Origin: a virus
Length of the DNA stretch: 28,101 nucleotides
Virus record (IMG/VR): IMGVR_UViG_3300017758_000085
Span: 1 to 28,101 of that record
Strand: one strand, 5' to 3'
Below are positions 1,510 to 10,934 of the stretch, piece after piece (the first letter of the stretch is position 1; each line of letters opens with the position of its first letter). The notes under the pieces were generated by a model that worked only from the letters and a program-made list of their open reading frames with translations, made no database searches and was not told where the DNA came from. The translations under genes and the position numbers were made by a program.

Positions 1510-2190
1510 ATGGCGACCTCTGGTTCTACGGACTTTGAGTTAGATGTAAGTGATTACATTGAAGAAGCATTTGAGCGTTGTGGTATGTCTGTCCGCACAG
1601 GATACGACCTTACTACAGCGAAGAGGTCGCTTAACCTTTTGTTTGCTGATTGGGCTAACCGTGGTTTAAATCGTTGGACAATTGAGCAAAGCACCGTGTC
1701 TTTGGTTGCGGGGACAAACAGTTATAATCTTGATGCAGATACGATTGATGTATTAAGTGCTGTTATTCGTACAAATGCAGGGGAGTCTACCCAATCCGAT
1801 GTTACCATTAATAGGGTGAGTCGCGATGAGTTTATCAACATCCCTAGCAAACTATCTCAAGCAAAGCCTGTGCAGTGGTATATAGATCGTTCGATTACCC
1901 CTGTTTTGAACATATGGCCTACACCTGATCAATCATATACTTTTGTATATGATAGGTTGACCCGTATCCAGGATGCCGATGATTATACAAATACGATAGA
2001 AGTACCGTTTAGGTTTTATCCGTGTTTAGCCGCAGGTCTTGCGTATTACATTTCTATGAAAAAAGCCCCTGATCGTATGCAGTTATTGAAAGCAGTGTAC
2101 GAAGAAGAGTTCCAACGGGCGGCATACGAAGATGTAGATCGCGCAAATCTTACGCTTACCCCACGCCGAGATTATTACGGGTTCATATAA
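1510..2190 (+). CDS. Head-to-tail adaptor, P22 gp4-like
   Basis: A 226-residue protein whose N-terminal half is a helical region (SDYIEEAFERCGMSVRTGYD, then LTTAKRSLNLLFADWANRG). A middle beta-rich part follows (VSLVAGTNSYNLDADTIDVL) and a C-terminal helical part ends in RRDYYGFI. This pattern is typical of the packaged-DNA stabilisation or tail accessory factor gp4 family of P22-like podophages, which sits under the portal ring and attaches the tail. It is longer than P22 gp4 (about 166 residues). AAGGAG at 1498-1503 supports the ATG at 1510. The stop overlaps the next start. Family assignment is by pattern, not by alignment. Confidence 0.65.
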   Translation: MATSGSTDFELDVSDYIEEAFERCGMSVRTGYDLTTAKRSLNLLFADWANRGLNRWTIEQSTVSLVAGTNSYNLDADTIDVLSAVIRTNAGESTQSDVTINRVSRDEFINIPSKLSQAKPVQWYIDRSITPVLNIWPTPDQSYTFVYDRLTRIQDADDYTNTIEVPFRFYPCLAAGLAYYISMKKAPDRMQLLKAVYEEEFQRAAYEDVDRANLTLTPRRDYYGFI

Positions 2191-2486: not shown

Positions 2487-3130
2487 GTTTTACCTACGCA
2501 CAGCTTAAAACAGCTATTCAGGATTATACAGAAAACCAAGAAACTACTTTTGTTAACCATCTTGATGATTTTATCCGAGGGGCAGAAGAGCGTATCCTCA
2601 AATCTGTGCAACTTGAGTTTTTCCGTAAAAACGCCACTGGGTCTATGACATCAGGTAATAAATTCCTTGCTGTACCTACGGATTTTTTAACGCCGTTGTC
2701 TTTGTCTGTCATTAGTTCTAGCAATCATGTCTTTTTATTGTACAAAGATGTGAACTTTATTCAGGAAGTAAACCCTAACCCTGCTACAACAGGTGTTCCA
2801 AAATACTATGCTTATTTTGATGTAAGCAATTTGGTTATCGCGCCTACCCCTAATGATAACTATACCGCTGAGTTGCATTATATGTACCGACCAAACAGCC
2901 TCACTGCTGGTGCGGATGGTGGAACAACATGGCTCAGCATAAATGCAGATAGAGCTCTTCTTTACGGAAGTCTCTTAGAAGCGTATACTTTTATGAAAGG
3001 CGAAGCTGATGTGCTTCAGCAATATGAAAAAATGTTTACTGAGGCTATCGGTAGGTTGAAAAACTTCGGGGAAGCCCTCGAGGTTACTGACGCTTATCGT
3101 CAAGGAATGTTAATGAGGCAAAAGGCATAA
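2483..3130 (+). CDS. Phage adaptor protein, SU10 adaptor-like
   Basis: A 215-residue protein with an N-terminal helical stretch (MSFTYAQLKTAIQDYTEN and FIRGAEERILKSVQLEFFRK), a central beta-rich domain (FLAVPTDFLTPLSL) and a C-terminal helix pair ending AYRQGMLMRQKA. This is the pattern of the head-tail adaptor found next to portal or neck genes in many podophages (SU10 adaptor family, related in fold to T7 gp11). It probably forms a ring between portal and tail nozzle. The ATG overlaps the previous stop (ATGA) and the stop overlaps the next ATG (TAATG). Confidence 0.6.
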   Translation: MSFTYAQLKTAIQDYTENQETTFVNHLDDFIRGAEERILKSVQLEFFRKNATGSMTSGNKFLAVPTDFLTPLSLSVISSSNHVFLLYKDVNFIQEVNPNPATTGVPKYYAYFDVSNLVIAPTPNDNYTAELHYMYRPNSLTAGADGGTTWLSINADRALLYGSLLEAYTFMKGEADVLQQYEKMFTEAIGRLKNFGEALEVTDAYRQGMLMRQKA

Positions 3131-3423
3131 TGTTTAAGGCTGATTTAAATCTTCCTGAAACACCGATTGTAACGGTGCAAACGACCCAGAATCGGGGGTT
3201 TACCCCTGATGAAGTCGCAGAGCGGTGCGTAAATAAATTAATTTCGGTCTCAGAATCCGCACCCCCAGCTATACGAGACCAAGCCAGAGCTTTCCAAAAG
3301 CATATGGAAAAAGTTGTGGCATATTATATGCGGGAGGCTATTCGAAGTGATAGAACTACGGTATATAATAAATTATTGGATGCAGGTCATCCTGAACTGG
3401 CTGAAGCGATAAGGAGATTTTGA
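3130..3423 (+). CDS. Small helical conserved phage protein, 97 aa
   Basis: A 97-residue protein with a disordered N-terminus, the motif NRGFTPDEVAERCVNKL, and a helical C-terminal half ending DAGHPELAEAIRRF. I recognise the NRGFTP...EAIRSDRTTVY pattern as recurrent in marine phages but know no function for it. It contains no Cys pair, membrane segment or catalytic motif. It is coupled to the adaptor upstream (TAATG) and to the structural gene downstream (TGATG), so it is made with virion proteins. It could be a neck or completion protein, or an unrelated moron-like factor. Confidence 0.65.
   Translation: MFKADLNLPETPIVTVQTTQNRGFTPDEVAERCVNKLISVSESAPPAIRDQARAFQKHMEKVVAYYMREAIRSDRTTVYNKLLDAGHPELAEAIRRF
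3411..3416 (+). promoter_or_regulatory. Ribosome binding site deciding the start at 3423
   Basis: AAGGAG lies six bases before ATG 3423. The same frame also has a TTG at 3420, but the spacing and codon favour ATG 3423, which overlaps the preceding stop as TGATG. Confidence 0.6.
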
Positions 3424-3866
3424 TGGCTATCACCCAAGCATTGTGTACTTCCTTTAAACAGGGACTACTCCAAGCGAAACATAACTTTACGACCTCTTCA
3501 GGTCACACTTTTAAACTTGCTCTGTTTACCAGTAGTGCATCTTTAGATGCCGCTACAGCTAATTATAGCACGAGTAATGAGGCAAGTGGTACAGGGTATA
3601 CTGCTGGCGGTGCGGCGTTGACTAACGTCACCCCTACCACAAGTGGCACAACAGCACTTACAGACTTTGCTGATCTTACTTTTAGCACAGCGACAGTCAC
3701 AGCAAATGGTGCTCTTATTTATAACACCACGACTGCTGGTGGCTCTGGCACGACGGACTCGGTACTTGTTCTTGCTTTTGGTGGTGACAAAACTTCCACC
3801 GCAGGGGACTTTACTATTCAATTCCCAACTGCGGATGCAAGTAACGCTATCATCCGCATTGCCTAA
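3423..3866 (+). CDS. Virion structural protein, 147 aa
   Basis: A 147-residue protein rich in Thr, Ala, Ser and Gly, starting MAITQALCTSFKQGLLQAKH and ending FTIQFPTADASNAIIRIA. The central part (SGTGYTAGGAALTNVTPTTS) and the GGDKTSTAGDFTIQFP motif match a structural protein often found before tail-fibre genes in marine phages. A beta-sandwich virion decoration or tail component is likely. No transmembrane segment is seen. AAGGAG at 3411 supports this start. Confidence 0.7.
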   Translation: MAITQALCTSFKQGLLQAKHNFTTSSGHTFKLALFTSSASLDAATANYSTSNEASGTGYTAGGAALTNVTPTTSGTTALTDFADLTFSTATVTANGALIYNTTTAGGSGTTDSVLVLAFGGDKTSTAGDFTIQFPTADASNAIIRIA

Positions 3867-3879
3867 GTAGGGGGTAAAA

Positions 3880-5139
3880 ATGGCTCTTGTCATTGCGGAT
3901 AGAATAAAAGAAACGACTGCGACCTCTGGTACAACGGATTTTGTATTAGGTGGGGCGGAAACGGGTTTTTCTGCCTTTAGTTCTGCTTTGTCTAATAGCG
4001 ATACTACTTACTATGCTTGTGTGGATGGTTCTGATTATGAAGTAGGGCTTGGTACTTATGTCTCTGGCACAAACACTTTGCAAAGAACTACGGTGTTAGC
4101 CAGCACAAACTCAGGTTCAAAAGTTAGTTTCTCGTCTTCAGCCAAAGAAATATTTATCACCTATCCCGCTGATAAATCCGTTTTCCTTGACGGTAGTGAT
4201 AACATCATTGCCGCTAATGGTAGTGCGCTGACCAACTTAAATGCCAGCAATCTTGCTAGTGGGACAGTAGCCGATGCACGGCTTCCTGCCAGCATCTCTT
4301 CTGATATCACGGGTAATGCGGCTACGGCCACAGCATTGGCTACAGGTCGTACCATTGCTTTGAGTGGCGATGTAGTGGCTTCCGGAGTTAGTTTCGATGG
4401 TACAAGCAATATAACGCTTTCCACTACTATCCAAGCAAACTCTGTTGCATTAGGCACGGACACAACTGGCAATTATGTAGAGGATATTACAGCGGGTAGT
4501 GCTATTGATGTATCCGGAGGTGGCTCAGAAACGGCCACTGTCACTATAAATGTAGATTTGTCAGAGTTAGCTACTTCCACCACAGATGGTGATGGTGACT
4601 TTTTTATAGTTGTGGATGCTAGTAATGTCCAACGCAAGTTGACTAAAGGCAACATAAATATTTCTGGTTTTAATAATGATGCTGGTTACACTGCTAATGT
4701 TGGTGATATAACAGGGGTTACCGCTGGAACAGGTCTTTCAGGCGGCGGGGCTTCTGGTGCAGTTACCGTTGATATGGATATCAACGGTCTGACAACTGAA
4801 ACCAGTTTCCAAAGCACCGACTTAATTCCTGTGTACGATGTTACTGCAAGTGCTATCCGTAAAGGGACAGTGGCCAATGTTGCTTTGGCAGGACCGACAG
4901 GACCGACTGGACCGACAGGAGGAGATGGACCAGATGGACCTCCCGGACCATCTGGAGGAACGGGACCGACAGGACCGACTGGACCCGCAGGAGGAACGGG
5001 ACCTTCTGGACCTCCCGGACCAACTGGACCATCTGGAGGAACGGGACCGACAGGACCGACTGGACCAACTGGACCGACTGGACCGAGTGGTTCGCCAATA
5101 GGCAAAGTTCTACAGGTTCAAGTAGTTTTAATGAAATAA
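3880..5139 (+). CDS. Tail fibre with collagen-like repeat (5' part, frameshifted)
   Basis: A 419-residue product. Residues 1 to about 110 ([20 protein letters not shown] onward) match the N-terminal, virion-proximal domain of many marine phage fibres. The middle contains fibre-type repeats, for example [14 protein letters not shown]. Residues 338-404 are collagen-like Gly-Pro-Thr/Gly-Pro-Pro triplets, a trimerising rod. The frame then gives [12 protein letters not shown] and stops. In the -1 frame the sequence is open from 4863 and continues to 5486 with a typical fibre C-terminal domain, so this product probably lacks its natural end. Cause unknown: a one-base loss (perhaps in TTTT at 5126-5129), an assembly error or frameshifting. 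The fibre probably binds the host surface. Confidence 0.75.
4891..5090 (+). repeat. Collagen-like Gly-X-Y coding repeat
   Basis: About 200 bp of degenerate 9-bp units, mainly GGACCGACN, with GGAGGAACG spacers, encoding Gly-Pro-Thr and Gly-Pro-Pro triplets. The block around 4960-4990 closely repeats at 5038-5062. Such repeats are prone to slippage and length change. All six frames remain largely open here because of the composition, which creates misleading long shadow frames on both strands. Confidence 0.9.
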
Positions 5140-5486
5140 ATACGGCTTATCGAGTCACAATAACGCCTTCATCTACCTCAAGCAAAATACTGCTTTGGTT
5201 TTTTGGAAACCCTTCAGTTGATGGTGGTCTTCATTTCGGATTGAATTTTTATCGAAGCATTGGTGGCGGCGGTTTTTCCAAAGTAAATAGTGGCAACGGC
5301 AATGAGGCTTTCAGGAATAGGGGTGGTAGTAAAATGCAGTTGTCTGCAACCGTTATGCACTTTGATTCCCCAAACACAACTAGCTCAATTGTATACACCA
5401 TATTTTTTAGAGCATCGGGGGGTACTTCTATTATGAATGACAACCCTATGGGTAGCTTTATGGTTGCAATGGAGATAGGAGCATGA
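5127..5486 (+). CDS. C-terminal domain of the tail fibre, -1 frame
   Basis: Continuation of the fibre gene in the -1 frame. From about 5127 the frame reads [20 protein letters not shown] and then a beta-rich domain to the stop at 5484-5486. The [11 protein letters not shown] pattern is characteristic of the C-terminal domain that follows a GKVLQV linker in many marine phage fibres, and GKVLQV is exactly what the upstream frame encodes. The only early start-like codon in this frame is TTG 5241, without a Shine-Dalgarno, which makes an independent gene unlikely. The stop overlaps the start of the tail assembly chaperone (ATGA), as expected for a fibre end. The start given is the most plausible junction, not a start codon. 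Confidence 0.6.
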
Positions 5487-5809
5487 TCATTCATTATGCC
5501 TTGTTAGCTCTGCGGCCAAATGCAGAATTTACGGTTAGGGGAGATAGTTACAGCGATATTGAGTGGTTTGATACATCTCAGACTATCCCAACTGAGTCTG
5601 AACTTACAGCAAAGATTGAAGAGCTTACTGCTGAACAGCCCCTGAACGAATTAAGAGAAGAACGCAACTACCGTTTGGCGGCGACTGATTGGTGGGCATC
5701 GTCCGATCTAACAATGACTTCCGAGCAAACAGCATATCGCCAAGCCTTGCGTGACATAACAAAAACTTATAGCAGTGTTGATAATGTAGTTTGGCCGGAG
5801 AAACCGTAA
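5483..5809 (+). CDS. Phage tail assembly chaperone (Phage_tail_APC-like)
   Basis: A 108-residue protein. The C-terminal half, LREERNYRLAATDWWASSDL followed by EQTAYRQALRDITKTYSS and ending VVWPEKP, is the signature of the tail assembly chaperone family (PF16778-like). These proteins assist folding or attachment of tail fibres. The ATG overlaps the stop of the fibre C-terminal domain by ATGA, a typical fibre-chaperone coupling that also supports the -1 frame segment being translated. The N-terminus ([20 protein letters not shown]) is a small beta-rich part. Confidence 0.8.
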   Translation: MIIHYALLALRPNAEFTVRGDSYSDIEWFDTSQTIPTESELTAKIEELTAEQPLNELREERNYRLAATDWWASSDLTMTSEQTAYRQALRDITKTYSSVDNVVWPEKP

Positions 5810-5813
5810 TTAG

Positions 5814-6362
5814 ATGCGTAATTTATGGCAGTTATGGTCTGGTGGAGCGAGTCAAGCTCAAATAGATTGGATCACGGATATTGCTAATACCAAGCCAGTT
5901 CAAGATGGCGGGATATTTTCCTCATCCGAGGTAAATGATAAAGTACGCACAAGTAGCGTTCGTTGGCTTACAGATGAGACCAAAGTACGAGATTGGCTGT
6001 TTGAATATGTCAAAACGGGCAATCGTAATGCGTTTAATCTAGATGTAGACAACTTTGCAGATATCCAATACACAGAGTATTTGGCTTCTGAAGGTGGCCA
6101 TTATGACTGGCATCATGATGTTGATTGGAACAGTGATATCGGGTATGATAGAAAATTATCTATAACTCTGCAATTAAGTTCACCTGATGAGTATGAAGGC
6201 GGCGACTTCGAGTTTAATGAAGTAGCTTCTCCTGGATCCGAATCTAAAGAAAAAGGAAGTGTGTTGGTGTTCCCTTCATACTTACAACATCGGGTAAAAC
6301 CTGTTACAAAAGGAAAAAGGATAAGTCTTGTAGCATGGTTTGAAGGACCAAGGTGGCGATAG
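5814..6362 (+). CDS. 2OG-Fe(II) oxygenase, prolyl hydroxylase-like
   Basis: A 182-residue oxygenase of the double-stranded beta-helix fold. The iron ligands are the HxD pair H100/D102 in YDWHHDVDW and the distal H159 in YLQHRVKPV. R169 in GKRISLVAWF is placed to bind 2-oxoglutarate. GSVLVFPSYLQHRV is typical of prolyl/PKHD-type hydroxylases. Expected reaction: hydroxylation of a protein or small-molecule substrate with 2-oxoglutarate and O2, giving succinate and CO2. It starts four bases after the chaperone stop and lies two genes after a collagen-like fibre, so a Pro residue in Gly-Pro-Thr triplets is a plausible substrate. That is inference; nucleic acid or a host protein is possible too. 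Confidence 0.85.
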   Translation: MRNLWQLWSGGASQAQIDWITDIANTKPVQDGGIFSSSEVNDKVRTSSVRWLTDETKVRDWLFEYVKTGNRNAFNLDVDNFADIQYTEYLASEGGHYDWHHDVDWNSDIGYDRKLSITLQLSSPDEYEGGDFEFNEVASPGSESKEKGSVLVFPSYLQHRVKPVTKGKRISLVAWFEGPRWR

Positions 6363-7025
6363 ATGCTAGGTTTTACCACATTATCTGGTGATACCCTATC
6401 GGGTGTAGGATCTGGGGCTATCACTGTAGCTGTCACAGGTGTTTCTGCTACGGGTGGTGTTGGGACAGTTACGGCTACTGGTATTGCTAATATCCCTGTC
6501 ACTGGTTTAGTTGGAACAACAGGTATTGGCAGTGTAACGGTAAAAGCAGATGCTGATGTATCTGTTACAGGAGAAGCCGCCACAGGCAACGAAGGTTCAG
6601 TCACTGTAGTTGCTGAAGCAGTTGTTAGCCCTACAGGTGAAGCCGCTACTGGTGCAGTTGGCAGTGTGTCTGTAACTGCAGATGCAAATGTAACCGTTAC
6701 AGGTGAAGCCGCGACTAGTGCGATCGGTAGCGTTGGTGTCACGGCCGATGCAAATTTACCAGTCACAGGTATTGCGGCTACTGGATCAGTAGGCTCTGTT
6801 TCGGTAGCAGTTTTCCAAACTGTAGCAGTTACAGGTAACTCTGCTACGGCTTCTGTGGGTTCAGTAACCGTAACAGCAGATGCCAATGTATCTGTTACGG
6901 GAATATCTGCTACCGGAGAAGCAGGAAAAGTGTTAGTATGGGGAACAATCGTTCCTGATCAAACACCGAGTTGGTCTCAGGTTTCACCAAGCCAGACACC
7001 AAGTTGGACAGAAATAGCGGCGTGA
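6363..7025 (+). CDS. Virion protein with eight 22-residue beta repeats
   Basis: A 220-residue protein. After a 24-residue N-terminus it contains eight repeats of 22 residues starting at Thr-Gly positions 25, 47, 69, 91, 113, 135, 157 and 179. Each has the form TG-x-(A/S)AT-x3-GSV-x-VTADANV-x-V. The last decays into a Trp/Pro-rich tail with two QTPSW motifs, ending TEIAA. The VWG...QTPSW ending is common to a family of marine phage structural proteins. The repeats probably form a beta-solenoid or extended beta-rod, so a tail spike or fibre component is likely. It starts immediately after the oxygenase stop (TAGATG). The opposite strand is open here only because of the repeat composition. Confidence 0.7.
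   Translation: MLGFTTLSGDTLSGVGSGAITVAVTGVSATGGVGTVTATGIANIPVTGLVGTTGIGSVTVKADADVSVTGEAATGNEGSVTVVAEAVVSPTGEAATGAVGSVSVTADANVTVTGEAATSAIGSVGVTADANLPVTGIAATGSVGSVSVAVFQTVAVTGNSATASVGSVTVTADANVSVTGISATGEAGKVLVWGTIVPDQTPSWSQVSPSQTPSWTEIAA
6435..6962 (+). repeat. 66-bp tandem repeat, eight units
   Basis: Eight in-frame 66-bp units encode the 22-residue repeats of the surrounding gene. They differ by many synonymous and non-synonymous changes, so this is an old expansion, unlike the exact duplication at 1377-1451. Confidence 0.85.
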
Positions 7026-7035
7026 GGAGGGAAAT

Positions 7036-8211
7036 ATGCCTAGTGTATATACTAATAATCTGAGATTAGAACTCATCGCTACTGGTGAAGCTGGCGGTAC
7101 TTGGGGTAGTAAGACTAATACAAATATTGATTTAATTGCAGAAGCCCTTGGTTATGCCGCATCAAACATGACGTCAGATGCTGACGCTACGCTGACAATG
7201 TCAGATGGTGCTACATCTGCTGTGCGTTCATTAATGCTGAAAGTTACTTCTGGGGTTAGTCTTACGGCTACTCGTAAATTGACTATTGCGCCTGTTACCG
7301 TAGCTAAAGTTTGGATAATTGATAATGCTACTACAGGTGGCCAGAGTATTACTATCGCACAGGGTTCTGGTGCTGATATAACTATTGCTAATGGTGATAC
7401 CCGTGTCGTTTATTCAGAAGGTTCGGGTTCAGGAGCGGCAGTTGTAGATGCTTTAGATAATCTAACTATTTCGGGTACGCTTACAGCTAGTGGTTTTGTC
7501 GGTGCTCTTACAGGCAATGCGACAGGAAACCTTACTGGCAATGTGACAGGTAATGTAACTGGTAATGTGACAGGCAACCTTACAGGCGATGTGACAGGCG
7601 ATGTGACGGGTGCTCTTACAGGCAATGCGACAGGAAACCTTACTGGCAATGTGACAGGCAATGTGACAGGCAATGTGACAGGCGATGTTACTGGAACGGC
7701 TACGAATGCTACGAACACAACGGTTACAGATGACACATCCACAAACGCAACTTATTATCTAACTTTTGTTGATGGAACTTCTGGTAACCAAGCTCAAGAA
7801 GTTTCAAGTTCTAAGTTAACATTTAATCCATCTTCTGGAACACTAACATCTACAACATTTAGTGGCGATGGGTCAAATCTGACAGGTATAAGTAGCGAGG
7901 GCTCGTCAAAGGCTTGGGGAGCACTCCAACAATCTGGAACACACACGTTTCGAGACTCGTTCAATTTTAGTTCTGTTACTGACATCGGGACTGGCCAATC
8001 AAGACTTGTTTTCACAAACAATATGTCAAATGCAAATTATGCAACTACTGGTATGAGTGGTGAAGAAAGTGGTGGTGGTAACCGATGTGTTGGTGTGAAA
8101 GGAAACTCTGCGGCTCCTGCAACAACAGGTTTTGATATTGCAAACTTTACCTTAACCAACAGCGCATCTGATGACACAAGAATAAGCGTTTCAGTCCTTG
8201 GAGACCAATAA
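7036..8211 (+). CDS. Tail fibre / minor structural protein with TGNV repeats
   Basis: A 391-residue protein. The N-terminus MPSVYTNNLRLELIATGEAG followed by GTWGSKTNTNIDLIAEA is a well-known opening of marine phage fibre proteins. Residues about 156-222 are tetrapeptide repeats of TGN(V/L/A). The segment TTFSGDGSNLTGIS leads into a C-terminal domain, KAWGALQQSGTHTFRDSFN to the end, that resembles distal fibre domains. AGGAGG at 7025-7030 is one of the strongest Shine-Dalgarno sequences in the window and fits high expression. The stop overlaps the next ATG (TAATG). It probably forms a trimeric fibre alongside the collagen-like one. Confidence 0.75.
   Translation: MPSVYTNNLRLELIATGEAGGTWGSKTNTNIDLIAEALGYAASNMTSDADATLTMSDGATSAVRSLMLKVTSGVSLTATRKLTIAPVTVAKVWIIDNATTGGQSITIAQGSGADITIANGDTRVVYSEGSGSGAAVVDALDNLTISGTLTASGFVGALTGNATGNLTGNVTGNVTGNVTGNLTGDVTGDVTGALTGNATGNLTGNVTGNVTGNVTGDVTGTATNATNTTVTDDTSTNATYYLTFVDGTSGNQAQEVSSSKLTFNPSSGTLTSTTFSGDGSNLTGISSEGSSKAWGALQQSGTHTFRDSFNFSSVTDIGTGQSRLVFTNNMSNANYATTGMSGEESGGGNRCVGVKGNSAAPATTGFDIANFTLTNSASDDTRISVSVLGDQ
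7501..7700 (+). repeat. 12-bp and 108-bp nested repeats
   Basis: A 12-bp unit of the form GGCAATGTGACA is repeated about 16 times. On top of it a 108-bp unit beginning GGTGCTCTTACAGGCAATGC is duplicated (7501 and 7609), identical over its first 50 bases. Recent recombination within the fibre gene is likely. Confidence 0.85.
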
Positions 8212-8681
8212 TGGACACTCCTGATTTTCAAGGTAAACACATTTTAGATAGGCTTGATTGGGCTAGGCTAAATCTTAAAAAAGTTCACTCTAAGTATGTT
8301 GTTGTTTATGAAGAGGGTGTTGATGACTGTGCAAGGATACTTTCTCCCGACCCTAACTGGTTGGCATGTGCTCTTCAAGGCGGCATCCTTCCACCCGTAT
8401 GGGTGTACTGGGAACTAGCAAAGGATGAGGCACAACCTGATTTTAATAATCATACTCGTAGCTATCTGTTGCACACAACAGAACCAATGCCAGCAATGAC
8501 AGAAGAACAAGCTATTGAGTATCTGATTATGAAGGACATACCACAGAAAGTGTGGCAAAAATGGAACACGGGCAACAAGCCCAAGTTGGTGATTTGCAAA
8601 AGAGAGCAGTTGCCACAAACACGCGAATGGCGAGATGCGTGGCGTATTAGCGAAAACGTCGCCGTAGACATGGTAGCATAG
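8211..8681 (+). CDS. Fibre-associated protein of unknown function, 156 aa
   Basis: A 156-residue protein with a conserved-looking centre, SPDPNWLACALQGGILPPVW, and an end (QTREWRDAWRISENVAVDM, about residues 136-154) that resembles the start of the next gene product (SDRHFRGAWSLSGTVISEDM). The shared R-x-(W/F)-R-x-A-W pattern is typical of small proteins encoded after fibre genes, some of which help fibre assembly. No enzyme motif is visible. It is coupled to the fibre gene by TAATG. Confidence 0.65.
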   Translation: MDTPDFQGKHILDRLDWARLNLKKVHSKYVVVYEEGVDDCARILSPDPNWLACALQGGILPPVWVYWELAKDEAQPDFNNHTRSYLLHTTEPMPAMTEEQAIEYLIMKDIPQKVWQKWNTGNKPKLVICKREQLPQTREWRDAWRISENVAVDMVA

Positions 8682-9071: not shown

Positions 9072-10934
9072 ATGCCACTGAGTAAGCTACAGTTCAAGCC
9101 TGGAATCAACCGTGAGGGAACCAACTACTCTAACGAGGGTGGTTGGTTTGACGGTGATAAAATACGCTTCCGTTATGGCTATGTTGAGCGTATTGGTGGT
9201 TGGACTAGAGTCAATGACTCAGCCTATATTGGTACTCCCCGCAAGATACATGCTTTTGTTACGCTAGATTCTTCTAACCTTTTGTTCATAGGTACTGAGG
9301 AAAAGGTGTATCTAGAAGAAAACGGAACATTAAATGATATTACGCCTCTCCGTAGAACAGTAACCCTTGGTGCAAACCCTTTAGCATCTACTACGGCAGG
9401 AACTGGTGTAATAACCATCAGTGATACAGGTCATGGTGCTTCCCTTGGAGATTATGTCACTATCAGTGGTGCTACGGCATTTGATGGGTTGACTACAGAA
9501 AATTTAAATCAAGAGTTGATTGTTACGAACGTGATTTCAGCTAATTCATATCAGGTAGACACAGGTGGTTCTGCTACGTCTGGTTCTACTTCTGGTGCGG
9601 GTAGTTCCGTTCAAGTAGCCTATCAAATACCTGTGGGACTTAATACCACTGTTCTTGGCACAGGCTGGGGTGCTGGTACTTGGGGCAGACTTACTTGGGG
9701 AAGTACTACAGGATCATTAGCGGGTGAATCATTGCGCTTATGGTTTGCTGATGATTTTGGTGAAGATTTAATCTTTAACGAAGCTGATGGTGGCGTTTAT
9801 TACTGGGATGCAACGAGCGGTGTTTCTACACGAGGGGTAAACATAACTGAGCTATCTGGCGCAATAGATGCTCCCACTGTTGCCCGTAAAGTCATGGTGT
9901 CAGATGTTGACCGCCATGTGCTTTGTTTTGGGGCAAATACTATCGGCACTAGCGCACAAGACCCATTATTGATTCGTTGGTCTGACCAAGAATCCATAAC
10001 AGATTGGAGTCCTACAGCTATAAATACCGCAGGTGATTTACGCTTATCACAAGGTTCTGAAATAGTTACAGCAGTGCGTACCAACCGACAGTTTCTAGTT
10101 TGGACAGACCATAGTTTGCATTCTGTTCAATATGTGGGTGCGCCATATACTTTTGGAACAGCTCTGTTAGCAGACAATATCCGTATTGCTAGTCCTAATG
10201 CCGCTATCAGTATTAATGACCTTGTGTTTTGGATGGGTCAAGAAAACTTTTACCTTTACGATGGTCGTGTAACACCAATACCGTGTTCGGTTAGAGATTA
10301 TGTGTTTAGTGATTTAAACCGCAACCAGTCGCTTAAGATTCATGCGGGTAGCCTAGCCAGCCAAAGCGAAATTTGGTGGTTCTATTGTTCTAGCGATTCT
10401 GAAGAAATTAATCGTTATGTTGTGTTTAACTACGCGGAACAAAGTTGGTATTACGGTTCTTTGGTGCGTACAGCATGGAATGACCGTGCCGCAGGAACTC
10501 GTAGCTTCCCACAGGCTACAGGCACAGATGGGTATTTATACGATCATGAGTTTGGGTTTGATGACGGTAGTGTAGACCCTGCTGTGGCTATTGATGCCTA
10601 TGTCCAGTCTTCTGATTTTGACATAGGCGATGGTGATCAATTTATGCTAATACGGCGTGTATTGCCCGACCTTACCTTCAATGGTTCAGAAACGGGTTCC
10701 CCTGCGGCGGTGTTTACGATGTCAAGCCGTGATTTTAGTGGTGACCCGTACACAGAAAGCCCAAGTGGGACAGTTACCCGAGCGGTAGCAAGTCCTATTG
10801 AACAATACACTGACCAAGTATTTGTACGAGCGAGAGGACGTTCTATGGCTTTAAAAGTGAGTAGTGATGCGTTGGGGGTAAAATGGCGGTTAGGTGCGCC
10901 GCGTTTAGATGCTCGTCCGGACGGTAGAAGATGA
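9072..10934 (+). CDS. Tail stabilisation / nozzle protein, P22 gp10-like
   Basis: A 620-residue protein opening MPLSKLQFKPGINREGTNYS and FDGDKIRFRYGYVERIGGW, the diagnostic start of the phage stabilisation (tail nozzle/hub) family related to P22 gp10. The rest is beta-rich with blades such as NRYVVFNYAEQSWYYGSL and WMGQENFYLYDGRVTP, consistent with a beta-propeller-like body. It is longer than P22 gp10 (472 residues), with an insertion-like Gly/Ser/Thr region near 105-195. It should plug and extend the tail below the adaptor ring. AAGAGGT lies upstream; the stop overlaps the next start (ATGA). Confidence 0.75.
   Translation: MPLSKLQFKPGINREGTNYSNEGGWFDGDKIRFRYGYVERIGGWTRVNDSAYIGTPRKIHAFVTLDSSNLLFIGTEEKVYLEENGTLNDITPLRRTVTLGANPLASTTAGTGVITISDTGHGASLGDYVTISGATAFDGLTTENLNQELIVTNVISANSYQVDTGGSATSGSTSGAGSSVQVAYQIPVGLNTTVLGTGWGAGTWGRLTWGSTTGSLAGESLRLWFADDFGEDLIFNEADGGVYYWDATSGVSTRGVNITELSGAIDAPTVARKVMVSDVDRHVLCFGANTIGTSAQDPLLIRWSDQESITDWSPTAINTAGDLRLSQGSEIVTAVRTNRQFLVWTDHSLHSVQYVGAPYTFGTALLADNIRIASPNAAISINDLVFWMGQENFYLYDGRVTPIPCSVRDYVFSDLNRNQSLKIHAGSLASQSEIWWFYCSSDSEEINRYVVFNYAEQSWYYGSLVRTAWNDRAAGTRSFPQATGTDGYLYDHEFGFDDGSVDPAVAIDAYVQSSDFDIGDGDQFMLIRRVLPDLTFNGSETGSPAAVFTMSSRDFSGDPYTESPSGTVTRAVASPIEQYTDQVFVRARGRSMALKVSSDALGVKWRLGAPRLDARPDGRR

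Follow-up and report, generated by a model that had tools for sequence, protein, structure and literature searches.

A candidate prolyl hydroxylase encoded beside the collagen-like tail fibres of marine phages

In this work we have analysed a 28,101-base DNA record of a marine bacterial virus (IMG/VR record IMGVR_UViG_3300017758_000085, hereafter the window), in which the gene for a small 2-oxoglutarate (2OG)-Fe(II) oxygenase follows closely on a tail fibre gene with a collagen-like tract. We propose that the oxygenase is probably a phage prolyl hydroxylase and that it acts on the collagen tract of the fibre whose gene lies immediately before its own. A first-pass annotation of this DNA had put forward, as an idea, a phage that hydroxylates its own fibre, and this idea is now supported by the co-occurrence of oxygenase and tract in related viruses and by a predicted fold that is nearest to prolyl hydroxylases. 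The whole case is one of comparative sequence evidence, in which independent evolutionary events are few. Collagen hydroxylation is usually regarded as a eukaryotic trait; our comparisons make it very likely that the window phage and its oxygenase-bearing relatives process their collagen in a manner similar to that of animals.

The oxygenase and its association with collagen-like tracts

The Gly-X-Y repeat of the fibre runs for 69 residues without interruption. Gly-Pro-Thr (GPT) is the commonest triplet, Gly-Pro-Pro (GPP) is rare and Lys is absent. The match of the fibre to Pfam Collagen (PF01391; E 3.8e-6, 27.0 bits) falls 0.2 bits short of the cut-off of 27.2. The oxygenase, for its part, matches its PF13640 profile with 58.7 bits against a curated cut-off of 27, and it has the HxD...H iron triad, a basic 2OG-binding residue and the double-stranded beta-helix fold. 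The active-site residues named in the first-pass annotation, H100, D102, H159 and R169, are all present and are invariant in 33 aligned relatives. An AlphaFold2 model based on 33 aligned sequences (predicted local distance difference test, pLDDT, 91.8) was compared with the PDB using Foldseek. The best match was the prolyl hydroxylase of Pseudomonas putida, followed at rank 2 by the viral collagen prolyl hydroxylase (vCPH) of chlorella virus PBCV-1 (5c5t, E 1e-10), and the first 50 matches include 4iw3, 5c5t, 6t8m, 4j25, 3gze and PHD2 entries together with the PKHD-type enzymes 3dkq and PiuC; an algal prolyl 4-hydroxylase (P4H) with peptide is also among the matches. The nearest solved structures are thus prolyl hydroxylases. 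Profile searches agreed with Foldseek and added structures of prolyl 3-hydroxylase 1 and procollagen-proline dioxygenase, while the best PDB match by sequence was of the PKHD type (YbiX/PiuC; E 1.3e-10, over residues 88-177 only).

A scan of IMG/VR with the window oxygenase returned 80 loci, numbered here with the prefix L, and 66 of them contained a collagen-like tract, taken as a Gly-X-Y run of 8 triplets or more. In most of the remaining 14 the contig ended a short way upstream of the oxygenase. Tracts were detected by a regular expression, which misses interrupted tracts, and metagenomic contigs are fragments. When all sets were combined, the oxygenase subfamily and a tract were found together at 121 loci, some of which are overlapping pieces of one contig. 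The two lay on the same strand in every case. The tract preceded the oxygenase at 118 of these loci, and at 118 the two were no more than 3 kb apart (median 1.4 kb). The clade of the oxygenase tree that contains the window comprises 40 rows with collagen, none that is collagen-free and 4 truncated ones which are undecided; in the clade of phage S-PRM1 all five members have collagen. These counts include, as a locus with collagen, the apparent exception L064, whose GPT tract is present but interrupted. At L015, L016 and L029 the upstream DNA is too short to judge. L405 and L450 had been scored as collagen by the regular expression, but they are not proline-rich and were counted as non-collagen. 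No collagen was found within 12 kb of the more distant oxygenases at 10 cultured-phage loci, nor any proline-rich tract at 80 loci with pelagiphage-type oxygenases, and the sister oxygenases of pelagiphages and other cyanophages are without collagen. The co-occurrence with Gly-Pro-X fibres, a check suggested in the first-pass annotation, is therefore both strong and specific.

The same association was seen when relatives of the window phage were collected through another gene, that of the structural protein at 9072-10934 (g9072), which resembles counterparts in Roseobacter, Pelagibacter and Planktothrix phages. Among 79 new loci fetched in this way, 78 had neither gene and one had both, with a GPT tract; for many the contig is short on the side where the two genes would lie, but the loci with at least 6 kb upstream were also without both genes. 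On the g9072 tree the window and L004 are nested among rows that have neither oxygenase nor collagen (support 97-100). The C-terminal parts of the fibres belong to 23 unrelated families, and it is therefore the tract that is the common element of these loci. Clustering of the N-terminal parts gave one big group, probably through low-complexity linkage, and was not used. The pairing spans podovirus-type phages, cyanomyoviruses and a bacterial contig, the last being a 312 kb contig of an Erythrobacter metagenome-assembled genome (L456) in which an oxygenase 47% identical to that of the window (1634-2176) lies downstream of a collagen gene of 100 triplets. As a separate observation, three Bacteroidota genomes (L457, L464 and L458) encode oxygenases of 39-42% identity directly after genes of about 2,400-2,550 residues.

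Target residue and the lysyl branch of relatives

Relatives with Lys-rich tracts of the GQKGQKGE type carry an extra protein of about 600 residues, composed of a GT25 domain, a GT_PLOD domain (PF25342; E 1e-44 to 1e-46) and a C-terminal 2OG domain. The solved structures closest to it are human LH3, procollagen galactosyltransferase 1 and R699, together with the lysyl hydroxylase structure 6ax6, and its domains match those of mimivirus L230. Conservation in 46-47 of 47 sequences was seen for the Asp pair of GT_PLOD, the WP, DDQ and HxD motifs and the distal His. This PLOD-type protein is found in the cultured Synechococcus phages S-PRM1, S-CAM9 and S-8S53/55/56 and in Roseobacter phage CRP-6, where it is annotated mostly as hypothetical or merely as a 2OG oxygenase; S-PRM1, S-CAM9, S-8S55 and S-8S56 have the small oxygenase as well. 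It also occurs at L049:1982-3775, L201:12555-14399 and about 70 other loci, and the adjoining tract, where seen, is always Lys-rich. Presence of the protein and Lys at Y went together in 66 loci and were jointly absent from 30; the one exception, L156, has a GT4 + GT25 + OGFOD2-like protein (2939-5224) in its place beside a Lys-rich tract. Four well-supported independent pairs on the oxygenase tree differ in this PLOD/Lys state, nearly all in the same direction, which is too few for significance. No GT_PLOD or lysyl hydroxylase domain was found in the scanned proteins of the window, whose tract has no Lys. In some cyanomyoviruses a second, different 2OG-Fe(II) oxygenase of 203 residues lies between the collagen fibre and the small oxygenase (L201:11393-12004, also L372 and L373), and a third collagen modification is possible there.

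The loci with the lysyl branch allowed a comparison of tracts with and without the small oxygenase. Pro occupied 31% of X positions at the 32 loci that have it and practically none at the 22 that do not, whereas Thr at Y differed little (51% versus 42%). Locus by locus, Pro at X ranged from 14 to 61% in oxygenase-positive and from 0 to 6% in oxygenase-negative cases, and all 47 dereplicated loci were concordant. At oxygenase loci without the lysyl branch, Pro made up 68% of X and 2.9% of Y. The likely target is thus the X-position Pro of Gly-Pro-Thr/Ala, as judged from tract composition. In animal collagen it is the Y-position proline (Gly-X-Pro) that is hydroxylated, and a target of this kind is disfavoured because Pro at Y is so scarce in the Lys-poor oxygenase loci. 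The first-pass annotation had named Pro or Thr as the modified residue; Pro still appears likely, but Thr does not, since the proline-free tracts that lack the oxygenase are nearly as Thr-rich, and we dropped Thr hydroxylation as the main activity because Thr content does not discriminate.

The sequences show the genes, their complete active sites and their close link with tracts of fitting composition. That the enzyme is active, which residue it modifies, when it does so and how this affects stability are inferred, and we picture them as follows. In the late phase of infection the oxygenase would use host 2-oxoglutarate, O2 and Fe(II) to hydroxylate X-position prolines of Gly-Pro-Thr/Ala/Ser on new, still unfolded fibre chains, before trimerisation. 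The hydroxylation may stabilise, or help to nucleate, the triple helix by which the receptor-binding tip is kept at a distance from the virion. Where relatives have Lys at Y, the protein with GT25, PLOD glucosyltransferase and lysyl hydroxylase domains would convert these residues of the fibre to glycosylated hydroxylysine. Gly-4-hydroxyproline-Thr peptides form triple helices, whereas Gly-Pro-Thr peptides are not known to do so. A bacterial enzyme, the P4H of Bacillus anthracis, is reported to act at the X position (PMC8968730). We lean, with somewhat less assurance than for the hydroxylase itself, towards a broader picture in which marine phages run a two-branch collagen maturation on their own tail fibres, by an X-Pro hydroxylase and a single three-domain lysyl hydroxylase/galactosyltransferase/glucosyltransferase for Y-Lys, each kept only where its target occurs. 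Phages would then obtain a stable triple helix by hydroxylating Pro at X, where animals do so at Y.

Gene layout of the window

The features of the fibre locus are given in Table 1; the early end of the fibre frame had gone unremarked in the first-pass annotation. Contigs L001 and L006 are 99.6-100% identical to the window, have an extra 40 bp between the copies of the 13-bp repeat and encode one intact fibre of 548 residues. Because these near-identical contigs are longer and have a single frame, we judge the fibre copy of the window to be broken by the loss of 40 bp, which is either a real variant or an assembly collapse; a programmed frameshift was considered and dropped for the same reason. 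Fibre, chaperone and oxygenase are contiguous in the window, as had been pointed out, but the chaperone is not a constant part of the arrangement. It does not lie between the other two genes in L002, L018, L020 and L034, and several relatives have no chaperone gene there at all, the oxygenase gene beginning at the stop codon of the fibre gene or overlapping that gene. Further genes beside the fibre encode repeat-rich proteins with Val-Thr-Gly-type repeats and Thr-Gly-Asn-Val runs (6363-7025 and 7036-8211), the second of which has tail fibre matches. They are followed by a 156-residue protein of no assigned family (8211-8681), which recurs near the oxygenase in many loci at varying positions.

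Table 1. Features of the fibre locus in the window (aa, amino acids; ORF, open reading frame)
Feature	Position	Strand	Basis
Tail fibre with collagen-like tract, frame ends early	3880..5139	+	ORF of 419 aa; PHROG tail fibre families, Pfam Collagen
Gly-X-Y tract, 23 triplets, proposed substrate	4891..5097 (about)	+	L006 3067-3273 plus offset 1824; translation
13-bp direct repeat; 40 bp missing in the window compared with L001 and L006, fibre frame shifted	5109..5121	+	Contig comparison
Out-of-frame rest of fibre C-terminal domain	5142..5486	+	Same frame as the rest of the fibre in L001 and L006
Tail fibre assembly chaperone (Phage_tail_APC)	5483..5809	+	PF16778 6.8e-13
2OG-Fe(II) oxygenase, proposed collagen prolyl hydroxylase, 182 aa	5814..6362	+	PF13640 1.1e-15; PHROG 61 4e-36

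Explanations weighed and comparison with known systems

Several of our observations weigh against a collagen prolyl hydroxylase. The structural similarity to the solved enzymes is only moderate (template modelling, TM, score 0.60-0.74), and the 2OG-binding residue R169 is an Arg, invariant in 33 sequences, and not a Lys. In canonical collagen prolyl 4-hydroxylases (C-P4H) a Lys is the ligand of the 2OG C5-carboxylate, and for this reason we do not file the oxygenase as a canonical C-P4H, although in our proposal it would work like a member of that family. When viral contigs were searched for the pattern GPTGPTGP, 109 of 120 stretches showed no 2OG oxygenase in the adjoining DNA covered, many of the loci being short, and Gly-Pro-Thr fibres therefore do not need it; at the other 11 every oxygenase was of the window's subfamily. 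The association is one-sided, in that the oxygenase comes with collagen whereas collagen can do without the oxygenase. The g9072 tree gave three changes with mixed pairings, which arise because pelagiphage-type oxygenases are without collagen, and the sign test was not significant. The tree of the PLOD-type protein needs only two changes, one of them on well-supported branches, with L341 as the independent switch, so that a phylogenetic sign test cannot be significant there. Lastly, the tract of Roseobacter phage CRP-6 contains some prolines (6% of X), although the phage lacks the small oxygenase.

Could the fibre and the oxygenase simply travel together in a late-gene module, with the enzyme acting on a host protein (EF-Tu), on another virion protein or on an oxygen or 2OG signal? 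We regard such hitch-hiking as unlikely. Related phage 2OG oxygenases do exist without collagen, the best structural match, the P. putida P4H, is an EF-Tu prolyl hydroxylase, and the independent evolutionary changes are few. However, linkage alone leaves unexplained why the oxygenase tracks Pro content among loci which all have collagen and a lysyl hydroxylase, and why it is still found beside the tract when the fibre C-termini belong to 23 unrelated families and the carriers range from podovirus-type phages and cyanomyoviruses to a bacterial contig. Might the tract be modified, but at a residue other than Pro (Thr, Asp/Asn or Ala in Y), possibly as a way of making a glycosylation site? Gly-Pro-Thr dominates, with Thr in Y, and at L161:10210-12312 an oxygenase of this subfamily forms one protein with a family 2 glycosyltransferase and a methyltransferase-like region, its gene following a collagen ORF of 2839 residues. 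We find this more doubtful still, as tracts lacking the oxygenase are nearly as rich in Thr yet almost free of Pro, and the fold matches mostly prolyl hydroxylases. A role in DNA or RNA repair or in stress, the usual description of phage 2OG-Fe(II) oxygenases, is by far the least probable. DNA repair has been suggested for phage 2OG-Fe(II) oxygenases (PMC3037559, PMC11288001), and a UvsW helicase adjoins some distant cyanophage members, but no repair gene was seen beside the oxygenase in the window or in the representative relatives examined, the closest proteins of solved structure are hydroxylases of the prolyl and PKHD types, and the oxygenase clade is restricted to collagen-fibre phages.

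If the oxygenase is indeed a prolyl hydroxylase of the fibre, it would provide a first concrete substrate for a group of enzymes, the 2OG-Fe(II) oxygenases of marine phages, of which many are unassigned, and would explain the stability of Gly-Pro-Thr fibre shafts. It would also bear on the origin of collagen-modifying enzymes, and such small bacterial-type enzymes could be of use for making hydroxylated or glycosylated collagen. Our search of the open-licence literature brought up giant viruses, bacteria and a Phold survey, but no paper in which phage oxygenases are linked to the collagen fibres of phages. An EGLN3-like fold of phage oxygenases was noted in a survey that names no substrate and does not mention collagen (PMC12774648). 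The broad PHROG 61 cluster of phage 2OG-Fe(II) oxygenases includes the window protein, whereas the related members tested lie away from collagen. The EPcl proteins of E. coli prophages are likewise phage-borne collagen proteins; the paper on them says that bacteria and viruses lack the prolyl hydroxylases needed, the opposite of what we propose (PMC3368898). Automated annotation has already touched phage enzymes of the lysyl kind, and a UniProt entry from an uncultured Caudovirales phage is named procollagen-lysine 5-dioxygenase.

Among characterised enzymes, the P4H of B. anthracis is a bacterial prolyl hydroxylase from an organism with a collagen-like protein, BclA, and it hydroxylates both X- and Y-position prolines in (PPG)n (PMC8968730). 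It is cellular and not phage-encoded, however, and the profile match between the window protein and solved P4Hs of its type reaches no more than E 7e-8. The vCPH of PBCV-1 (5c5t) is, like our candidate, a virus-encoded 2OG-Fe(II) enzyme with a prolyl hydroxylase fold (profile match E 1.5e-13 with a broader alignment, A1, which is too diverse for a scan), but it belongs to a virus of a eukaryotic alga, whereas the window enzyme, about 19% identical to it, comes from a bacteriophage and has a genetic link to a collagen fibre. Collagen lysyl hydroxylation is known in giant viruses, where L230 of mimivirus modifies viral collagen (PMC9614988). The GT25, PLOD glucosyltransferase and lysyl hydroxylase domains of the protein in the Lys-rich relatives have their counterparts in L230, animal LH3 (PLOD3) and COLGALT1. 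Unlike these systems, the phages have all three domains in one protein and their partner collagen is a tail fibre; the window has no such protein.
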